From Corallococcus sp. NCRR (GTDB taxonomy: Bacteria; Myxococcota; Myxococcia; Myxococcales; Myxococcaceae): DNA of 64,000 nt. Of the stretch, positions 24,532 to 31,992 are shown one piece after another. Position numbers and translations under genes: made by a program. Location of the stretch: contig NZ_CP114039.1 of the NCBI RefSeq assembly GCF_026965535.1, positions 5,022,001 to 5,086,000 of the forward strand, in the 5' to 3' direction. Each line of letters opens with the position of its first letter. Within the stretch, counting starts at the first letter, position 1. The notes below the pieces were generated by a model. It saw nothing but the letters and a program-made list of their open reading frames with translations, did no database searches and had not been told where the DNA came from.

Positions 24532-25857
24532 TCAGCGCGCCACGGCGACGGAGGCCGAGGAGGACGACGCGGGCGGGACGGATTCGGGCGCGGGGGGCTC
24601 GTCCTGCTTCGGCTGGGCGGCGTTCTCCGGCAGGAACGTCAGCAGCACCAGCGCGGGGATGGCCGCCGCGGCGGTGAAGGCGAAGAAGGTGGGCCAGCCC
24701 ATCCACGTGGCCAGGTATCCGGACACGGAGCCGATGAGCCGGTTGGCGATGGTGCCCAGCGCGGACAGCAGCGCGTACTGCGTGGCGCTGAAGCTCTTGT
24801 GGCACAGCGACATGATGAAGGCCGCGAACGCCGTGACGCCCAGGCCCGTGCACACGTTGTCCACGGCGATGGTGCCCGCGAGCATCAGGTCGTTCTTGCC
24901 CACCAGCGCCAGGGCCATGAAGGCCAGGTTGGTGAGGCCCTGCGCGGCGCCGAAGATGAAGAGCGCGCGGCGCATGCTGAGCTTCACCATCAGCACGCCG
25001 CCCAGCAGGCCGCCGCCGATGGTGGCCACCATGCCCAGCGTCTTGCTGAGCGCGCCAATCTCCGTGTTGGAGAAGCCCAGCTCGATGTAGAAGGGCGTCA
25101 CCATGCTGGCGGCGATGGCGTCCCCCAGCTTGTAGAGCACCAGGAACGCGAGCACTCCCAGCGCGTACTCGCGGCGGAAGTAGTCCACGAAGGGCCGCAC
25201 CACCGCATCCGCCAGGTTGCGCGGAGGCCTTACGCTCTGGGGCTCCGGGGCCAGCAGGGTCGCCACCACGCCCACGCCCATGAGCACGCCCATGACGTAG
25301 TACGTCCGCGACCAGCCCAGGTGGTCCGACAGGATGAACGCGAGCCCGCCCGCCACGAGCATGCCCAGCCGGTAGCCGGTGACGTACAGCGAGTTGCCCA
25401 GCCCGCGCTCCTCCAGGGTGAGGATGTCCGTTCGCCACGCGTCCGCGACGATGTCCTGGCTGGCGGACAGGAACGTCACCACCACCGCCATGCACGCCAT
25501 GGCCAGCGGGGTGTCCTTCGGGTTCACCAGGCCCATGGCGGCGATGGCGCCCATGAGCAGCACCTGCGTGAGCAGCATCCAGCCGCGCCGCCGGCCCAGG
25601 AAGGGCAGAGTGTAGCGGTCCATCAGCGGCGCCCACAGCACCTTGAAGGTGTAGGGCAGCGCCACCAGGCTGAAGATGCCAATCGTCTTGAGATTGACCC
25701 CCTCGTTCTTCATCCACGCGGACAGCGTGACGCCGGTCAGCCACAGGGGGAGGCCGGACGCGAAGCCGACGGCCATCAGGAGCCAGACGCGCCGGCTCTT
25801 CAAGACGGTGAGAAGCGAGGAGTTGGGCATGGGGGCGCGGGAAACAGCCGCCAGCAT
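24532..25857 (-). CDS. AmpG-like major facilitator permease
   Basis: A 441-residue protein with twelve predicted membrane helices. [26 protein letters not shown] near the N-terminus and [26 protein letters not shown] are signatures of the AmpG branch, which imports anhydro-muropeptides for cell-wall recycling. The C-terminal 30 residues are Pro/Ser-rich. Start ATG 25857 has GGTGGA upstream; ATG 25830 is possible. It follows the caspase-module lipoprotein after 95 bases on the same strand and may be read through from that operon. The substrate is inferred from family membership. Confidence 0.88.
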
Positions 25858-25952
25858 AGAGAATCCACCCCGCGCGTCACCTTCCAATGGCCAGGGACTG
25901 TCCGCCCGGCTGCTGTCCGGCCCCAAGCTCAGGCGGAGCCCGGGCGGCCTCT

Positions 25953-26918
25953 TCAGGGCTTCGGGTCCAGCGCGGACACGTCCGGACAGGTGGCGCGGTT
26001 GCCCTCGGTGGGGGTGATGAAGTCCCAGTTGCGCTGCATGAAGGTGATGCGCGTCCGGGCGTCCCAGCACTCCGTGTACTGCGCGCCCTTCGCGTCTCCG
26101 TCCAGGATGTTGAGCACCAGCACGCCCCGGCCATCCGGCGTCCAGCGCGCCACGATGTCCAGCGTCTCCAAAAGCCCGCCGGGAATCAGGTCCGTGCCCG
26201 GCAGCCGGAACGCCATCTCCCCCAGGCCCTCGGGCGTCTGACGCGACGCATAGCGGGTGTTGGGCGTCGTGGCGCCCGCACCGGTGAAGAGCAGCTCCAC
26301 GCGCGTGGGCAGCGCCTTCGTCTGGTAGTCGATGTCCAGCCGGTCCAGGTTGCGCGCGTCCCCCGTGTCGAAGCCGTGCGCGCGGGCCGCCTCGAGGTCC
26401 AGCGCGAGCGTGCCGGTGCCCTTGCGGATGCCGCCGTCCGCCTGGAAGGCGCCGGGCAAATAGGTCCACCACGCGGCCTCGCCGCCGCCCCGGGGACGGA
26501 ACTGGAGGAGGTAGGTGAAGGAGTCCTCCTGGCGCTCCATCACGAAGCGCAGCTCGTGGCCCGGGTGGTCGTCCGAGGGGAAGGGGCCCCAGATGCGCCG
26601 GTCGGTTTCTCGCGTGGTGGGCGGGGCGTCGCGGAACAGCTCCAGCAGGGCGAGCAGGCCATCCACGCTGGTGTTGAACTGCGTGCCCGCTCGGTAGGCC
26701 TGGAGGGCGAGCTCCGACGTGCCGCCCAGCACCAGCGACGCGCCCAGCCGCTGGGTGCGCGGGCCCAGGCCCTGGCCGGAGCGGGCGGTGTCCGGCAGCT
26801 TCGCGGCCAGGTCCTCGCGCTGGGGCAGGGCGTTCTGGAACTCCAGGTCGTCGTTGGAGAAGTCGCCGCCGCACGCGACCGCGAGGAGACAGCAGAGGGC
26901 AAGGGCAAAGGTTCGCAT
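25953..26918 (-). CDS. Lipoprotein B of the ECF/caspase module
   Basis: A 321-residue lipoprotein (MRTFALALCCLLAVACGGDF, lipobox AVAC). The mature part is rich in beta strands. It aligns by eye over its length with the lipoprotein at 29926-30924: NDDLEFQNALPQRE versus NDADTFREGLPSKE, then GQGL, then PPTTRETDRRIWGP versus PPTTLEENKAVWGP, and TECWDARTR versus NECWDTNFL. GGGAG precedes ATG 26918; the ATG at 26933, overlapping the caspase stop as ATGA, is an alternative. It is the last gene of the operon. The family is not known to me. Confidence 0.8.
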   Translation of the reverse strand: MRTFALALCCLLAVACGGDFSNDDLEFQNALPQREDLAAKLPDTARSGQGLGPRTQRLGASLVLGGTSELALQAYRAGTQFNTSVDGLLALLELFRDAPPTTRETDRRIWGPFPSDDHPGHELRFVMERQEDSFTYLLQFRPRGGGEAAWWTYLPGAFQADGGIRKGTGTLALDLEAARAHGFDTGDARNLDRLDIDYQTKALPTRVELLFTGAGATTPNTRYASRQTPEGLGEMAFRLPGTDLIPGGLLETLDIVARWTPDGRGVLVLNILDGDAKGAQYTECWDARTRITFMQRNWDFITPTEGNRATCPDVSALDPKP

Positions 26919-26929
26919 CACGTGCTCCC

Positions 26930-28573
26930 TCATGGCTCGTACGTGAGGAGCGCGGCCAGCTCCCAGAATCCCAGGGAGCGCTGCGCGTCGACGGTGTACT
27001 GGAGGTACTGCAGGCGGCTGCGCGCGGTGAGGTTCAACCTGCGCGTGAGCTGGACGCGCGCGCCCGTCGCCAGGCCCGGTGACACCATGGCGAAGCGTTG
27101 ATCCGGGAATGCCGCGTCGTCGAACTTGCGGCCCATGATGAGGTACGCGACGCGCACGCCCACGAACGGAGCGAAGCGGCCCACGGGCCATTCCGCGGTG
27201 AGGCTGGTGCCCACGTTCACCACGGAGTAGCGGTACGTGGGGCCCGCCAGCGTGGGCAGGGCCAGCACGCCGTTCGTGCCGCCCACCGCCGCGTCGAAGC
27301 CCCAGACCCAGTCGCGGCGGAAGTAGTCGTGCAGCTCGGCCTCCGCGCCGAAGAGGGGCACGGAGAGGAAGAGGGACTGGCGCGTCTGGGCGTCGAAGAA
27401 GGACTGGAAGCCGCCGGTGAGTCCGAAGGTCCACCACGTGCCCTTGTCCAGCATGGCGCCCTTCACGGGGTCGTCGGAGAAGGGCGCGTCCTTGAAGCGC
27501 GGCTCCTGCAGGATGGTCGTGCGCCCGCGAGCGACCTCCACTTCGCCGATGCGCAGCCGGTCGCTGAGCCGGCGCTTCACGCGGTAGGTGCCGGGGGCCA
27601 GGGCGACGCGGCGCTCGGTGTCCGCGGCCTTGTCCAGCTCCGCGACCACGAGTCCGCCCGGGTCCACGAAGTAGTAGGAGCCCGCGGGGGCGTTGCCGGG
27701 GACGACCAGGCCCTCGGCGCTCGCGCGCAGGTCGGTGAGGACCAGGTCGCCGTTGCCCGCCAGGTCGTAGCTGAACGTCGGATGCTGCGGGCCCGCGCTG
27801 CTGTCCGCCGTGTCCGCGACGGTGCGGGCGTAGGCGTGCGAATACGCCTCGAAGAGCGTCACGCGGCCGTCGCCGCTGCGGTCCGCGTCCCCCAGCAGGC
27901 CGCTGGCCAGGTGATGGGAGAAGTAGCTGCCGCCCAGCGCGTCCGACTCCTGCGAGTCCTCGTCCGCGGCGCTGGAGGTGAGGATGACGACGCCCCGGGC
28001 ATCGCGTGCGGCGCCGGACTCCACGTCGAAGGCCGGGGCCTTGCGAGCGCCCTTGGTGCGGGTGAGCGCACCCGAGCGGCAGGAGTCGAGGATGGCGATG
28101 CGGATGTCCACGGGCGCGTCGGCCAGCCGGCGCTTGAGCGCGTCGAAGGCGAGCCGTGAATCCCCCAGCCGCAGCGCGCCGTCCTTCGCGTGGCCGGAGT
28201 AGTAGACGAACAGAGCGGTGCGCTCGCCGCGGGCCTGGGCCGCGCGGGCCTGTTGCTCCAGCTCCGACAACGCGACGAGGAAGCTCTTCGCGTCGTCGTC
28301 CAGGAGGAGCTTCGCGTCGGCCGGGGACACGCCGCCCAGCCGCGTGAGCAGGTCGTGCATCTTGCGCGCATCGTCACGCGCGTAGCTCAGGGGCCGCGTA
28401 TCCGCGCCGCCCGTGTCGTTGCCCGCGATGAGCGCGAAGCGGTGCAGCGTGTCCGCGTGCGCGGCGGTGGAGGCCAGCACCAGCGCGGAAATCGAGGCCC
28501 GCATCGCCGAAACCAGGCTCCGTGCCCAGACCGCCACAGGAGCGAGCACCTGTCTCACGGGGCCGTCGCTCAT
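26930..28573 (-). CDS. Secreted caspase-like (C14) protease with beta-barrel-like C-terminus
   Basis: 547 residues. A signal peptide or anchor covers about 1-40 (MRASISALVLASTAAHA). The caspase domain (about 43-290) has the catalytic dyad in YYSGHAKDG (His128) and ILDSCRSGAL (Cys165), plus TSSAADEDSQES and a calcium-loop-like DRSGDGRVTLFE. A beta-sandwich-like linker (about 305-375; LAPGTYRVKRRLSDRLRIGEV) follows. The last 160 residues have alternating amphipathic strands with aromatic ends (FGLTGGFQSFF, YSVVNVGTSLTAEWPVGRFAPF), as in outer-membrane barrels. ATG 28573 overlaps the TGA of the anti-sigma gene. The substrate is unknown; secretion places it in the periplasm or outer membrane. Confidence 0.85.
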   Translation of the reverse strand: MSDGPVRQVLAPVAVWARSLVSAMRASISALVLASTAAHADTLHRFALIAGNDTGGADTRPLSYARDDARKMHDLLTRLGGVSPADAKLLLDDDAKSFLVALSELEQQARAAQARGERTALFVYYSGHAKDGALRLGDSRLAFDALKRRLADAPVDIRIAILDSCRSGALTRTKGARKAPAFDVESGAARDARGVVILTSSAADEDSQESDALGGSYFSHHLASGLLGDADRSGDGRVTLFEAYSHAYARTVADTADSSAGPQHPTFSYDLAGNGDLVLTDLRASAEGLVVPGNAPAGSYYFVDPGGLVVAELDKAADTERRVALAPGTYRVKRRLSDRLRIGEVEVARGRTTILQEPRFKDAPFSDDPVKGAMLDKGTWWTFGLTGGFQSFFDAQTRQSLFLSVPLFGAEAELHDYFRRDWVWGFDAAVGGTNGVLALPTLAGPTYRYSVVNVGTSLTAEWPVGRFAPFVGVRVAYLIMGRKFDDAAFPDQRFAMVSPGLATGARVQLTRRLNLTARSRLQYLQYTVDAQRSLGFWELAALLTYEP

Positions 28574-29358
28574 GGCTTCAACAGCATCCACTGCGTCTGC
28601 GCGCCCGCCACGTCCAGCGGGGCCATGCGCGTGACGTCCCGGCCCGCCGCGTTGAAGGCCTTCCGGGCCGCGTCGCTCAGCGCGTCCATGGACACGGGCG
28701 CGTCCGTCAGCACCAGCACCACGCGCTCCGCACCCGCGCCGGTGAACTCCACGCTCTCCGGCAGCCAGTGCTGCCCCGCGCCCGGCTCCACCGCGAGGCT
28801 GTCCCCGGACTCCGGATACAGCGGCGTCACTTCTCCCTGCGCGTCCACCGACAGCGCCGCCACGTAGCGGTACGCGTCCGCCGTGTAGCCCAACCGCACG
28901 CGCTCACCGGGCTGTAGCGACTCCGGCGCCTCCGTGCTCGCCACCCGCTGCGGATCCACGCCTCCACCGATTCGCAGCTCCGCGACCGCGCCGCCCTTGA
29001 TGCGGTTGCCCGCGACGGGCGGCTGGACCGGATCCGTCCTCCCGCCGGTCTCCAGCAGCGGACGCGCCAGCACCAGCACCACCACGGACGCCGCCACCGC
29101 CATCAGCGGCCGGACCCATTGCGCGCGCGTCGCCGGCTCTCTCGCGGCTTGCCTCGCGCGCGCCCGCTCCACGCCGGCCTCGAAACCTTCGAACGGGACC
29201 TCCGCCTCGAACGCGGCCTGCGCGTCCGCGAAGGACCTCAGCGTCGCGCCACATGCGTCGCACGCCTCCGCATGCTCCCGGACGCGGTTCGCCTCCTGGG
29301 TGGGCAGCTCACCAGCGTGCAGGCGGCGCAATGTCCAGCTCGACTCGTGCGCGCTCAT
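28570..29358 (-). CDS. Zinc-finger anti-sigma factor with DUF4384-like domain
   Basis: 262 residues. The cytoplasmic N-terminus has the ZAS motif HxxxCxxC (His29, Cys33, Cys36), a single membrane helix follows at about 82-104 (LMAVAASVVVLVLARPLL), and the periplasmic part (about 140-240) resembles DUF4384: GERVRLGYTADAYRYVAALSVDAQGEVTPLYP. ATG 29358 overlaps the sigma-factor TGA as ATGA, the usual arrangement for sigma/anti-sigma pairs. It should hold the sigma factor at the membrane until the periplasmic domain senses a signal or is cleaved. DUF4384 is common beside caspase domains in bacteria; here the two are on adjacent genes. Confidence 0.88.
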   Translation of the reverse strand: MSAHESSWTLRRLHAGELPTQEANRVREHAEACDACGATLRSFADAQAAFEAEVPFEGFEAGVERARARQAAREPATRAQWVRPLMAVAASVVVLVLARPLLETGGRTDPVQPPVAGNRIKGGAVAELRIGGGVDPQRVASTEAPESLQPGERVRLGYTADAYRYVAALSVDAQGEVTPLYPESGDSLAVEPGAGQHWLPESVEFTGAGAERVVLVLTDAPVSMDALSDAARKAFNAAGRDVTRMAPLDVAGAQTQWMLLKP

Positions 29359-29897
29359 CGGACGCTCAGCTCCTCTCCACCCAGCTCCGCGAAATGCTCC
29401 AGCCGCTTGCGCACCGTGGGCACCGAACGCCCCAGCACCGCGGCCACCTCTTCCAGCGTCATCCCGTCCACGTGGTAGTGGATCGCCGCCGCCTGCGTCT
29501 CCGCGTCCACCCGGGCCAGCAGCTTGCGCACCAGGTCGCGCGTCTCCATCGCCTCCGCGCCGCCATGGCCCTCGGAACGGGCCGCCTCGTCCCTCGCGAA
29601 CCACTTCCTCCACGCCGCCCCTTCCGAGCGCAACTGGTTGAGGCAGTGGTGCGTGGCGATCTTCATCAGCCACGTCAGCGGAGACGCCTCCGCCCGGAAC
29701 GACTCCCCGTGCACGAGCGCGCGGGCGAAGACGTCATGCATCGCGTCCTCCGCCCGGCTCGCGTCCTTCAGCAGGTAGCGGCAGCGCTCACGCACGCTGC
29801 CGCCGTACTTCACATACAGCTCGCGCAGGACGGCCCGCCGGTCCTCGTTGGGACGGGGAGGCACTACCTTCAGGGCCAGCGGGGTCGGTCCGGTCAC
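29355..29897 (-). CDS. ECF-family RNA polymerase sigma factor
   Basis: A 180-residue group-4 sigma factor: region 2 (about 20-95; ELYVKYGGSVRERCRYLL, SRAEDAMHDVFARAL, SPLTWLMKIATHHCLNQLR) and region 4 (about 125-170; MTLEEVAAVLGRSVPTVRKRL). There is no region 1.1 or 3. The GTG start at 29897 lacks a strong ribosome-binding site, and translation may depend on the preceding lipoprotein gene, whose stop is 28 bases upstream. It is followed by its overlapping anti-sigma gene. I found no obvious ECF-type promoter to suggest self-regulation. Confidence 0.93.
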   Translation of the reverse strand: MTGPTPLALKVVPPRPNEDRRAVLRELYVKYGGSVRERCRYLLKDASRAEDAMHDVFARALVHGESFRAEASPLTWLMKIATHHCLNQLRSEGAAWRKWFARDEAARSEGHGGAEAMETRDLVRKLLARVDAETQAAAIHYHVDGMTLEEVAAVLGRSVPTVRKRLEHFAELGGEELSVR

Positions 29898-29925
29898 GCG
29901 CGGCGCAAGCCTACCGCGACCCGGC

Positions 29926-30924
29926 TCAGAGCGACGAGTACACCGCCGCCGTGAACCCGCCGCAGGCCGCCTCCGCCTCGCCGTAGCCCAGGCGCGGGTC
30001 CAGGCTGACGCGGAAGTAGGTGCTGAGGAAGTTCGTGTCCCAGCACTCGTTCAGCGTGGCCTCGCCCACCAGGTCGCCCCCCGTCACCTTGATGTCCGAG
30101 CGGCCCGCCCCCGTCGCCGTCCAGCGGCTCTTGATGGACAGCCGCTCCAGCTTCGCGCGCAGCGGGTCGCCGTTGTCGATGTCCTCGTTCGTCGCGAACT
30201 CGAACTCGCCGCCCGCCGTCGCGGACGCCTTGTAGTGGTACGTCCCGTCCACGCGCTTGTTGGGGTCCTTCTCGTCACGCACCTGGTGGAAGTCCGCGTC
30301 CACCGTGGCCTCCACGGAGGCGCTCGGGCGCGCGTAGCGGATCTCCACCGTGCCCACGTTGTCGTCCGCATCCGGCAGGGTGTGCGCCGCGTCCCAGTCG
30401 ATGAACAGCTCGCCGGAGCCGTAGCCCTTCACGCGCTCCCCGTCCGCGTCCACCGTCACCTGTTGCGTGCCGGACAGCACCGCGCGGAAGGCGCTGTCCT
30501 CCTCGGCCTTCGCCTTGCCCTCCAGCACCCAGGAGAACGACGCCTCCCCCGACTTCGTCACCGTCAGCCGCCACGTGGTGGGACTCAGCGCCTCCGTGCT
30601 CGGGCCCCACACCGCCTTGTTCTCCTCCAACGTCGTCGGCGGATACTTGGAGATCTGCTCGATGAGATTGAGCACCCACAGCGTGCCGCCGTTCACCGCC
30701 ACCGTGGCGTTCACCGTCGCCTGGTAATACTCCGCCTTCTGCCCCTGGCCGTACTGCGCGGAAGGGCCGGCCGCCGTCAGGCCCTGGCCGTTCGCCTTCG
30801 GCGCCTTCACCTGCGTCATCTCCTTGGAGGGCAGGCCCTCACGGAACGTGTCCGCGTCATTGGCCACGGTGTCGTTGCAGCCGACGAACAGCAGGGAGGC
30901 ACACAGCAAGCTCTTGCGCAGCAT
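29926..30924 (-). CDS. Lipoprotein A of the ECF/caspase module
   Basis: A 332-residue lipoprotein (MLRKSLLCASLLFVGCNDTV, lipobox FVGC), first gene of the operon and 28 bases upstream of the ECF sigma gene. The mature part is beta-rich with a single conserved-looking NECWD near the end and a second Cys (AACGG) at the C-terminus. It appears paralogous to the lipoprotein at 25953-26918. AAGGAC lies 9 bases before ATG 30924. The 210 bases upstream contain no other gene and should carry the operon promoter; I cannot identify it with confidence. Confidence 0.8.
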   Translation of the reverse strand: MLRKSLLCASLLFVGCNDTVANDADTFREGLPSKEMTQVKAPKANGQGLTAAGPSAQYGQGQKAEYYQATVNATVAVNGGTLWVLNLIEQISKYPPTTLEENKAVWGPSTEALSPTTWRLTVTKSGEASFSWVLEGKAKAEEDSAFRAVLSGTQQVTVDADGERVKGYGSGELFIDWDAAHTLPDADDNVGTVEIRYARPSASVEATVDADFHQVRDEKDPNKRVDGTYHYKASATAGGEFEFATNEDIDNGDPLRAKLERLSIKSRWTATGAGRSDIKVTGGDLVGEATLNECWDTNFLSTYFRVSLDPRLGYGEAEAACGGFTAAVYSSL

Positions 30925-31134
30925 GGTCGGGCGTCCTTTCAGGGCCCGTCTTGCGCGGGCCGTGCGGCAATGAATTCGCCCCTATGGACACAGGCCGACC
31001 AAAAAACAGAAAAAGCGCTCGCTAGAGGTGGAAAAGCACAGTGAAACCAAGCGTTTGGCGTCTGGCTGCCTGCTCTCCGGCCACCCGCGCCCGCCTGCCC
31101 GACGGTTGAAATGGGCCATCCCTACCTTTCGCCC

Positions 31135-31992
31135 ATGGAAAAACGACACCCGAACCATCCCGGGGAGATGAGTACGGACGCCACGCTGGCCGAGCGGGAT
31201 CGTGCGCCGGACGAGATCAACGCCCGCGCCAGAGCCGTCGGTCTGCTCCATGAGGCCGGGGTGCCGTTCGTGGTGGGGGGGGCGTATGCCTACGCCACCT
31301 ATACCGGCATCTACCGCGACACCAAGGACCTGGACCTGTTCCCGCGCAAGCAGGACGCCATCCGCGCCCTGGACGTGCTGGAGAAGGATGGCTGGCGCAC
31401 GGAGCGGCCCGACGAGGTCTGGCTCTACAAGGCGTACAAGGGCGATTACTTCGTCGACTTCATCTTCTCCTCCGGCAACGGCGTGGCGACGGTGGACGAC
31501 GAGTGGTTCACCAACGCCAGGAAGGCCACCATCTTCGGCTACGAGTGCCTCATCGCGCCCGCCGAGGAGATGATCTGGTCCAAGGCCTTCGTCACCGAGC
31601 GCGAGCGTTATGACGGCGCGGACATCAACCACCTCATCCTCAAGGCGGGGCGGGAGATGGACTGGGACCGCATCCTCCGGCGCTTCGACCGCTATTGGGA
31701 GGTGCTGCTCAGCCACCTGATGATGTTCCGCTTCGCGTATCCCAGCGAGCGCGACATCGTGCCCAACTACGTGATGACGGAGTTGATGAGCCGCACGCTC
31801 CAGACGGTGCGCGACGGCAGCTGGGACGAGAAGCTGTGCCGGGGCAACCTGGTGTCCAAGGTGAACTATCACGTGGACATCCACCACTGGGGCTTTGGGG
31901 ACGGCAGGGCGTGGGACGAACAGGACAGACCCGAGGGGGGAACCCGTGGCGCGAGATCCGAGCTCGAAGATTCGACTGGCAGCGGTCGGTGA
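31135..31992 (+). CDS. Nucleotidyltransferase-fold protein
   Basis: About 285 residues. The N-terminal half has a nucleotidyltransferase-like core: FVVGGAYAYATYTG followed by DTKDLDLF, where GG and the DxD pair match the catalytic pattern of Pol-beta-type enzymes such as the AbiEii-like group. The C-terminal half is helical (DWDRILRRFDRYWEVLLSHLMMF). The start is uncertain: ATG 31135 was chosen, but ATG 31111 and ATG 31168 are possible and none has a clear ribosome-binding site. The last 47 bases overlap the metallophosphoesterase gene in another frame. The substrate is unknown. Confidence 0.75.
   Translation: MEKRHPNHPGEMSTDATLAERDRAPDEINARARAVGLLHEAGVPFVVGGAYAYATYTGIYRDTKDLDLFPRKQDAIRALDVLEKDGWRTERPDEVWLYKAYKGDYFVDFIFSSGNGVATVDDEWFTNARKATIFGYECLIAPAEEMIWSKAFVTERERYDGADINHLILKAGREMDWDRILRRFDRYWEVLLSHLMMFRFAYPSERDIVPNYVMTELMSRTLQTVRDGSWDEKLCRGNLVSKVNYHVDIHHWGFGDGRAWDEQDRPEGGTRGARSELEDSTGSGR

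Follow-up and report, generated by a model that had tools for sequence, protein, structure and literature searches.

Operons that combine metacaspase genes with sigma-70 genes were reported in 2012: in Myxococcus xanthus DK1622 four of the five metacaspases are encoded in such operons, and others occur in Anaeromyxobacter, Haliangium, Sorangium, Ralstonia and Fibrobacter (PMC3501461; cited, like all papers here, for part of its text). In the type III-E CRISPR system of Csx29, Csx30 and CASP-sigma, a caspase-like protease cuts the inhibitor of an extracytoplasmic function (ECF)-like sigma factor, with experimental support; the same paper describes the regulated proteolysis through RseA, DegS and RseP that releases SigmaE (PMC10028731). 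For ECF54 sigma factors encoded near CHAT or other proteases, control by proteolysis without an anti-sigma factor has been proposed (PMC8999054), and the EACC2/caspase-ECF systems have TPR or TRADD-N partners (PMC8195603). Here we describe a module of five genes (lipoprotein Lip1, ECF sigma factor, anti-sigma factor, caspase, lipoprotein Lip2; 25953..30924) from Corallococcus sp. NCRR, whose genome of 9.79 Mb forms the single contig NZ_CP114039.1. It lies in a window of 64,000 nucleotides (positions 5,022,001 to 5,086,000 of the contig; all coordinates below are those of the window), and the open reading frames place all five genes on the minus strand, just where an earlier note made from the letters of the window had put them. 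We read the module as a whole trans-envelope switch in which a predicted outer-membrane caspase would act as the dedicated site-1 protease of its partner anti-sigma factor, and we give this reading a probability of roughly 0.6. The features on which it draws are computed: a conserved gene order, an intact catalytic dyad, a site shared by the anti-sigma factor and the caspase that varies in matching fashion in the two, and a conserved motif upstream.

The proposed cleavage site is R119-I-K121-G122 (28993..29004) in the periplasmic stalk of the anti-sigma factor, that is, in the 55 residues after its membrane helix, and the cut would fall after K121. Among 69 caspase-linked anti-sigma factors (70 less that of L089, the gene of which is shortened; L and G numbers are our labels for loci and genomes) the stalk carries R.KG in 60, KG in 68 and [KR]G in all 69. 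The corresponding figures for R.KG and KG are 1/69 and 9/69 in the rest of the periplasmic part of the same proteins, 1/69 and 3/69 in their cytoplasmic part, and 1.4% and 15% in random 55-residue windows from 512 other called proteins. The host genome itself has 29 zf-HC2 places, 14 of which are readable as an anti-sigma factor with a membrane helix; three of these are caspase-linked (RIKG in the window, VRG in L253, QARS in L251), and the stalks of the other 11, one of which (L241) is only 2 residues long, have KG in none and [KR]G in four. The same four-residue motif stands in the caspase, its Lys nine residues after the catalytic Cys, as R149-T-K151-G152 (28049..28060), our proposed self-processing site. 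The loop around it (residues 143-169) is modelled with a predicted local distance difference test score (pLDDT) below 50, as expected for a flexible linker, and the motif is invariant in the 16-row alignment. Our collection of 86 caspases consists of proteins similar in sequence to the window caspase, together with the Pfam matches of the host genome; in its alignment the K151 column holds Lys in 83 and the next column Gly in 84. The exceptions to Lys are L115 and L116, both from the host genome and without a sigma neighbour, and L118, which has Arg; the Lys-Ser of L117 sits further along the linker and falls in the column by alignment only. Metacaspases are known to cut after Lys or Arg, to process themselves and to need calcium; in the yeast enzyme the p20-p10 linker is cleaved in maturation, and in one plant metacaspase a linker Lys enters the active site (PMC9622860). 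Orthocaspases likewise cleave after basic residues (PMC6426788). The earlier note had supposed that the protease cuts a periplasmic domain, possibly that of the anti-sigma factor: this protein does appear to be the likely target, with the likely site in the stalk and not inside the DUF4384-like domain.

The two sites also vary in step. We compared 118 pairs with distinct caspase sequences, 67 of which came from the first set and 31 and 20 from the later L117-type and L118-type classes. As stalk site we took R.KG where present and otherwise the first KG, with [KR]G in place of this KG for the two later classes; as linker site of the 31 L117-type pairs we accepted any basic residue that had S, A, G, P or D after it. 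From the 79 rows of the later classes, 8 were dropped with an unread membrane helix and 15 for want of a same-strand upstream partner that could be read, and repeats were merged in part. The basic residue (P1) is the same in 117 of the 118 pairs, 98 being Lys/Lys and 19 Arg/Arg, with a single Arg/Lys. The Arg pairs come from the L118 type, whose caspases have x-R-G in the linker: of its 21 distinct pairs, 20 have both sites read (19 Arg/Arg and the one Arg/Lys, L282), and L284 stays unpaired, its linker site not having been found. L117-type rows have Lys in both partners in 32/32 cases, under the loose linker pattern. Two residues before the basic one (P3), presence or absence of Arg agrees in 111 of the 118 pairs (60 with Arg in both, 51 in neither, 5 in the stalk only and 2 in the caspase only). 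Mapped on the caspase tree, changes at P3 fall on 7 branches for the caspases and on 8 for the anti-sigma factors, with 3 branches in common (null mean 0.58, P 0.0096), and changes at P1 on 1 and 2 branches, with 1 in common (P 0.026); outside the window type the P3 table reads 23/2/2/7, for which a Fisher test that ignores descent gives P 0.0002. Decayed loci offer a further comparison. In one genus, five genomes (G128, G138, G139, G140 and G141) have either no caspase or a broken one; in four of the five, Lip1 and the sigma gene are also reduced to fragments and the anti-sigma frame is still open (L352, L354, L355, L357). The stalk site has changed in two of these four (Arg to His in G128, Gly to Ser in G141); it is kept by the five intact comparison genomes of that genus and by G140, in which the caspase gene lies in two parts about 2.4 kb apart and Lip1, sigma and anti-sigma genes are present over the stretch read (L348). 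The locus of Myxococcus sp. CA023 (L129) has decayed in the same way and agrees with G128 in its stalk letters; the two may be the same strain.

The caspase gene (26930..28573) encodes 547 amino acids when read from the ATG at 28573 and 524 when read from that at 28504; the later start gives the protein an ordinary-looking signal peptide, MRASISALVLASTAAHA, as judged by eye. The overlap of 4 bases with the anti-sigma gene that the earlier note described holds for the first start only and becomes a gap of 65 bases with the second; among window-type relatives the called gap ranges from -4 to 329 bases. Peptidase_C14 (PF00656; 44.8 bits against a cut-off of 21.4) is the sole Pfam family listed for the protein, and NF047832, the EACC1-associated caspase profile, stays below its cut-off (62.8 bits against 140). 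The catalytic His (H105 in the 524-residue form, to which our residue numbers refer, and H128 in the longer one; 28190..28192) and Cys (C142 or C165; 28079..28081) are each present in 86 of the 86 aligned caspases. The same domain contains an EF-hand-like loop, DRSGDGRVTLFE (27848..27883), a putative calcium site whose regular expression matches 75 of the 86. An AlphaFold2 model of the window protein, made from the 16-sequence alignment (mean pLDDT 73.8, predicted TM-score 0.57), consists of a caspase domain (residues ~20-245), a small beta domain (~265-331; 27512..27712) and, at the C-terminus, eight long strands arranged as a beta-barrel (356-522; 26939..27439). Foldseek matches the model to OmpA and NspA barrels at E values of 6e-9 to 9e-9 (OmpA 9fzc, E 6.8e-9 and target-normalised TM 0.69; NspA 1p4t, E 8.5e-9 and TM 0.72) and also to caspase-6 (E 6.5e-6), and a second fold comparison finds procaspase-7 at Z 17.8 with a root-mean-square deviation (rmsd) of 3.0 over 213 aligned residues. 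Caspase fold and His-Cys dyad together place the protein in family C14, and the barrel of the model, together with the signal peptide, predicts that it ends in an OmpA-like eight-stranded outer-membrane barrel. Barrels with an even number of strands have their N-terminal side towards the periplasm, so the caspase domain would be placed there. What had been called a secreted protease is thus predicted to be exported, as had been said, and then to be held by its barrel in the outer membrane instead of being released. For the other modules a barrel is assumed from protein length and, in the L117 type, also from alignments that extend into the C-terminal part.

Gene order was followed by searching for the caspase in 59 genomes, the host genome included, and taking from outside the host the 38 loci with a long caspase match (G054:C848 and the partial match G027:C231 were left out). 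The order Lip1-sigma-anti-sigma-caspase-Lip2 is found, more often than chance would give, in 33 of these 38 loci with a relative of the whole caspase, spread over five families; in two of the 33 (L085 and L097) the end lipoprotein is cut by the contig end. Two of the five exceptions, L093 and L095, are likewise cut by contig ends, L105 is without Lip1, L100 has the caspase without an adjoining sigma or anti-sigma gene, and L089, a second module in G022, lacks both lipoproteins and has the shortened anti-sigma gene. Each of the five genes is kept in 35 to 38 of the 38 loci, and the nearest outside genes in 16 (below) and 21 (above), counts for which some of the stretches taken stop close to the unit. 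By gene order, then, the data support the view that the five genes form one conserved unit. The earlier reading of the whole five-gene set as a unit stands to that extent; the essential part appears to be sigma-anti-sigma-caspase, which recurs without the lipoproteins.

Some 60 bases upstream of Lip1 lies a promoter-like bipartite motif, TTTCTGTTTT-N11-GTGTCCAT (30984..31012), which forms a conserved block in the upstream alignment. With up to 3 mismatches it is found directly upstream of the module in 28 of the 38 loci, without any mismatch in 18 and with a spacer of 12 bases in 3, and at this threshold it was not found in the other ten: L093, L095 and L097, which have contig ends; L096 and L104, where there are 4 mismatches; and L100, L101, L102, L103 and L105. 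The motif goes with the sigma gene, since in the lipoprotein-less L089 it stands directly upstream of sigma. This conservation suggests that the unit regulates itself. At the same threshold the host genome has two sites and none for a reversed-pattern control; over the 59 genomes the pattern gives 70 matches and the reversed pattern 22, so that single weak sites mean little. The second site in the host genome (L166 1852-3984, at about 4.056-4.058 Mb) precedes a two-gene operon for an exported protein (CxxCH letters, PSCyt matches below cut-off) and a lipoprotein, and of the 16 genomes searched in the genus, 15 (L166, L167-L180), all but G013, have a site at the equivalent position; on these grounds we consider the operon a candidate further target of the sigma factor. 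Motif sites with 2 and 3 mismatches also occur about 122 bases before a membrane-protein gene in two genomes, in L181 (420-448) and L182 (348-376), as a possible third target or by chance. Among stray sites with 2-3 mismatches, one is inside a gene (L185), and G035 has two sites (1 and 2 mismatches; L183, L184) away from its module.

The three-gene core is repeated within the host genome. Pfam finds seven caspases there, five of which (the window, L066, L067, L117 and L118) follow the order sigma-anti-sigma-caspase; the remaining two, L115 and L116, lack a neighbouring sigma gene. Two more loci came from searches with two caspase types, L315 in the same order and the divergent L316, which makes six modules and one divergent arrangement in total. 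In L316 (3175-5960) the caspase is divergent from the anti-sigma/sigma pair, and the stalk has QARS where relatives have QARG. The caspase of L066 (3976-6240), of 754 amino acids, has a long repeat region (GMQLGLINVGGDVSGMQLGLINV) in place of the barrel of the window protein, and that of L117 (5612-7258) starts with a lipobox-like signal (LLCAC) and may be lipoprotein and barrel protein at once. A sigma gene lies two positions upstream on the same strand for 70 of the 86 caspases; the window type contributes 36 of its 39 members to this count and the other types 34 out of 47. By this gene order the operons of M. xanthus and other bacteria reported earlier (PMC3501461) are very probably the same kind of module. 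Homologues of the window caspase, of any type, are found in 152 of the 179 genomes of the phylum; the shared-site comparison covers the Myxococcota. A plasmid search with the window caspase gave no match, and one with a second caspase type gave partial-length matches in 36 records. We would put at even odds the broader proposal that outer-membrane-tethered caspases form a family of dedicated site-1 proteases in myxobacteria. On this view each barrel would be a sensor, each caspase domain would read a short basic-Gly code that its linker shares with the stalk of the partner anti-sigma factor, and several such switches would operate side by side in a single cell.

The switch that we propose for the window module would work as follows. 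The zinc-type anti-sigma factor, with its periplasmic stalk and DUF4384-like head, would hold the ECF sigma factor at the inner membrane, and its partner caspase would be exported and anchored in the outer membrane by the eight-stranded barrel, its caspase domain staying in the periplasm; export signal, fold and membrane helix are here predictions. From this arrangement we infer the cleavage itself, the signal, the later proteolysis, the promoter activity and the role of the lipoproteins. A signal at the outer membrane, possibly with the help of calcium, would trigger the caspase, which would cut two bonds, one behind the Lys of R-T-K-G in its own linker and one behind the Lys of R-I-K-G in the anti-sigma stalk. 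The leftover stub would be cleared by general proteases of the membrane interior and the cytoplasm, and the sigma factor, now free, would use the upstream motif to induce the operon that encodes it and perhaps one other. The lipoproteins may tune or inhibit the switch in the window module type.

Several results weigh against this proposal. Since [KR]G occurs in 38% of random 55-residue windows and in 4/11 unrelated stalks, the Arg class counts for less as evidence than the Lys class. The stalk of L251, which neighbours a divergent caspase, reads QARS at the place, without KG or RG, the orphan caspase L100 keeps K-G without an adjoining anti-sigma gene, and K-G in the stalk could mark the start of a folded domain. 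As to the matching variation, L282 is a mismatched pair (R/K), co-variation within the classes is shared descent (parsimony gives a single change of P1 for the caspases and two for the anti-sigma factors), and the co-change at P3 falls to P 0.096 when this position is split into R, G and other. The pairings were partly set by the site-picking rules, which helped the agreement at P1 and at P3 favoured R.KG. Two of the four decayed loci keep R.KG. The barrel model rests on the window protein only, its confidence is moderate (mean pLDDT 73.8), and the five models spread from 73.8 to 55.7.

The main rival, in our judgement unlikely but with a real chance of being right, is that the caspase is the output of the system and not its trigger: the sigma factor, answering to some other signal, would increase the amount of an outer-membrane caspase whose targets are envelope proteins or foreign ones, in autolysis, predation or fratricide, and K-G in the stalk would be a structural turn. 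Co-encoding of caspase and sigma behind a common upstream motif agrees with this, an intact dyad suits any active protease, and surface or fratricidal roles have been suggested for extracellular metacaspases (PMC3501461). This view, however, does not predict that the same four-residue motif should stand in the linker and in the stalk, nor that Arg or its absence should match in the two, and it leaves the absence of K-G from the 11 unrelated stalks unexplained. In another account, which we think improbable, the stalk is cut at K-G by another protease or by itself, and the target of the caspase lies elsewhere, for instance in the lipoproteins. Self-cleaving anti-sigma factors exist elsewhere, and both Lip1 and Lip2 of many near relatives have a similar basic-Gly loop, GERVKGYGSG or GIRKGTG; yet many distant modules keep the stalk site and show no such loop, and the modules without lipoproteins keep both the stalk and the linker site. 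That the barrel protein signals by contact, as FecA does with FecR, with catalysis irrelevant to signalling, would fit the same general layout of outer-membrane barrel, periplasmic domain, anti-sigma factor and ECF sigma factor, but is very improbable given His and Cys intact in 86/86 caspases and no signalling domain listed by Pfam.

The sigma gene (29355..29897) starts with GTG and encodes 180 amino acids, with Pfam regions 2 (PF04542, Sigma70_r2; 47.2 bits against a cut-off of 24) and 4 (PF08281, Sigma70_r4_2) above cut-off and alone, as in ECF sigma factors, and with the NCBIfam sigma70-ECF profile TIGR02937 at 66.2 bits against 42.9. It overlaps the anti-sigma gene by 4 bases, in agreement with the earlier note. 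The anti-sigma factor (28570..29358; 262 amino acids) combines the zinc motif HAEACDAC (HxxxCxxC; residues 29-36, 29251..29274) in its cytoplasmic part, which by pattern has the letters of a zinc anti-sigma factor, with one membrane helix predicted at the hydrophobicity maximum (residues 82-98, 29065..29115), the stalk and the DUF4384-like periplasmic domain. Its profile matches are below cut-off, zf-HC2 with 19.0 bits against 22.2 (21.5 bits in the whole-genome search) and DUF4384 with 20.9 bits against 27 (23.1 bits in the genome search). In L067 (6530-7234) the anti-sigma factor has a match, also below cut-off, to the alpha-2-macroglobulin bait region (19.4 bits, cut-off 22.7).

Lip1 (29926..30924; 332 amino acids), first gene of the unit, and Lip2 (25953..26918; 321 amino acids) are open reading frames with a lipobox; an alternative ATG for Lip2 at 26933 would overlap the caspase stop. 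That the two are paralogues which bracket the unit, as the earlier note held, is borne out by the match of Lip1 to Lip2 in the same genome (E 8e-16) and by 33 of the 38 orthologous modules. The model of Lip1 is all-beta (mean pLDDT 78). Foldseek gave no match to the lipoprotein fold at E <=0.001, and a second comparison reached Z scores that are only middling (9.0 at most, with rmsd 6.0) for barrels and further beta proteins, so that no function is assigned. Basic-Gly loops are present in Lip1 (GERVKGYGSG, 30424-30435) and in Lip2 (GIRKGTG, 26418-26429); they recur in near relatives, were not seen in many distant modules, and are possible further targets of the caspase. The lipoprotein profile has no match in the loci of other types (L066, L067, L115-L118, L186-L225, L255-L334), and among the loci examined the lipoproteins are accessories of the window module type only; the role of envelope sensors that the earlier note proposed for them is putative. 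Rfam has no family over threshold within 25500-31500, and PADLOC finds in the window only weak caspase and mad1 matches.

Among the matches listed from the open-licence PMC literature, a scope that puts subscription papers and preprints outside, we found no account of an outer-membrane caspase, of the stalk site or of the mechanism. For the operons of PMC3501461, the part of that paper cited here gives no anti-sigma factor, barrel, lipoproteins, shared site or mechanism. The excerpted texts on the ECF54 and EACC2 systems, where, as here, caspase-like proteases occur near ECF sigma factors, mention no outer-membrane caspase (PMC8999054, PMC8195603). The likeness to FecA-FecR-FecI is one of layout, that system linking an outer-membrane barrel, an anti-sigma factor and an ECF sigma factor across the envelope. 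FecA, a large TonB-dependent transporter with a signalling domain, works by contact; the window caspase has a modelled barrel of eight strands, and no TonB-dependent or signalling Pfam domain is listed for it.

What most bacterial caspase homologues do in nature is a matter of discussion, usually in terms of cell death. The present proposal names a specific substrate and bond, a candidate promoter and a place in the membrane, which makes it testable with one protease and one peptide. If true, it would add to envelope signalling a class in which an outer-membrane protein itself cuts the anti-sigma factor, in several parallel copies in one genome; on the broader proposal, outside-in signalling rather than cell death would be a main job of myxobacterial caspase homologues. 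The switch would also parallel the freeing of an ECF sigma factor by the CRISPR-linked caspase-like enzyme, the proposed likeness being that a caspase-like protease relieves the inhibition of an ECF-like sigma factor. Csx29, in the text cited, is an RNA-activated TPR-CHAT protease in a Cas7-11 complex, without membrane anti-sigma factor or outer-membrane anchor (PMC10028731); the window caspase has Peptidase_C14 as its only Pfam family, and CRISPR genes were not searched for. With sigma-metacaspase operons already known (PMC3501461), what we propose is a variant of protease-controlled anti-sigma signalling. It resembles RseA/DegS/RseP in that a site-1 cut in a membrane anti-sigma factor would free an ECF sigma factor. 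DegS, the site-1 protease of RseA, is an inner-membrane serine protease, whereas here the site-1 protease would be a caspase that is predicted to reside in the outer membrane, and a protease gene stands in the operon of each sigma factor.

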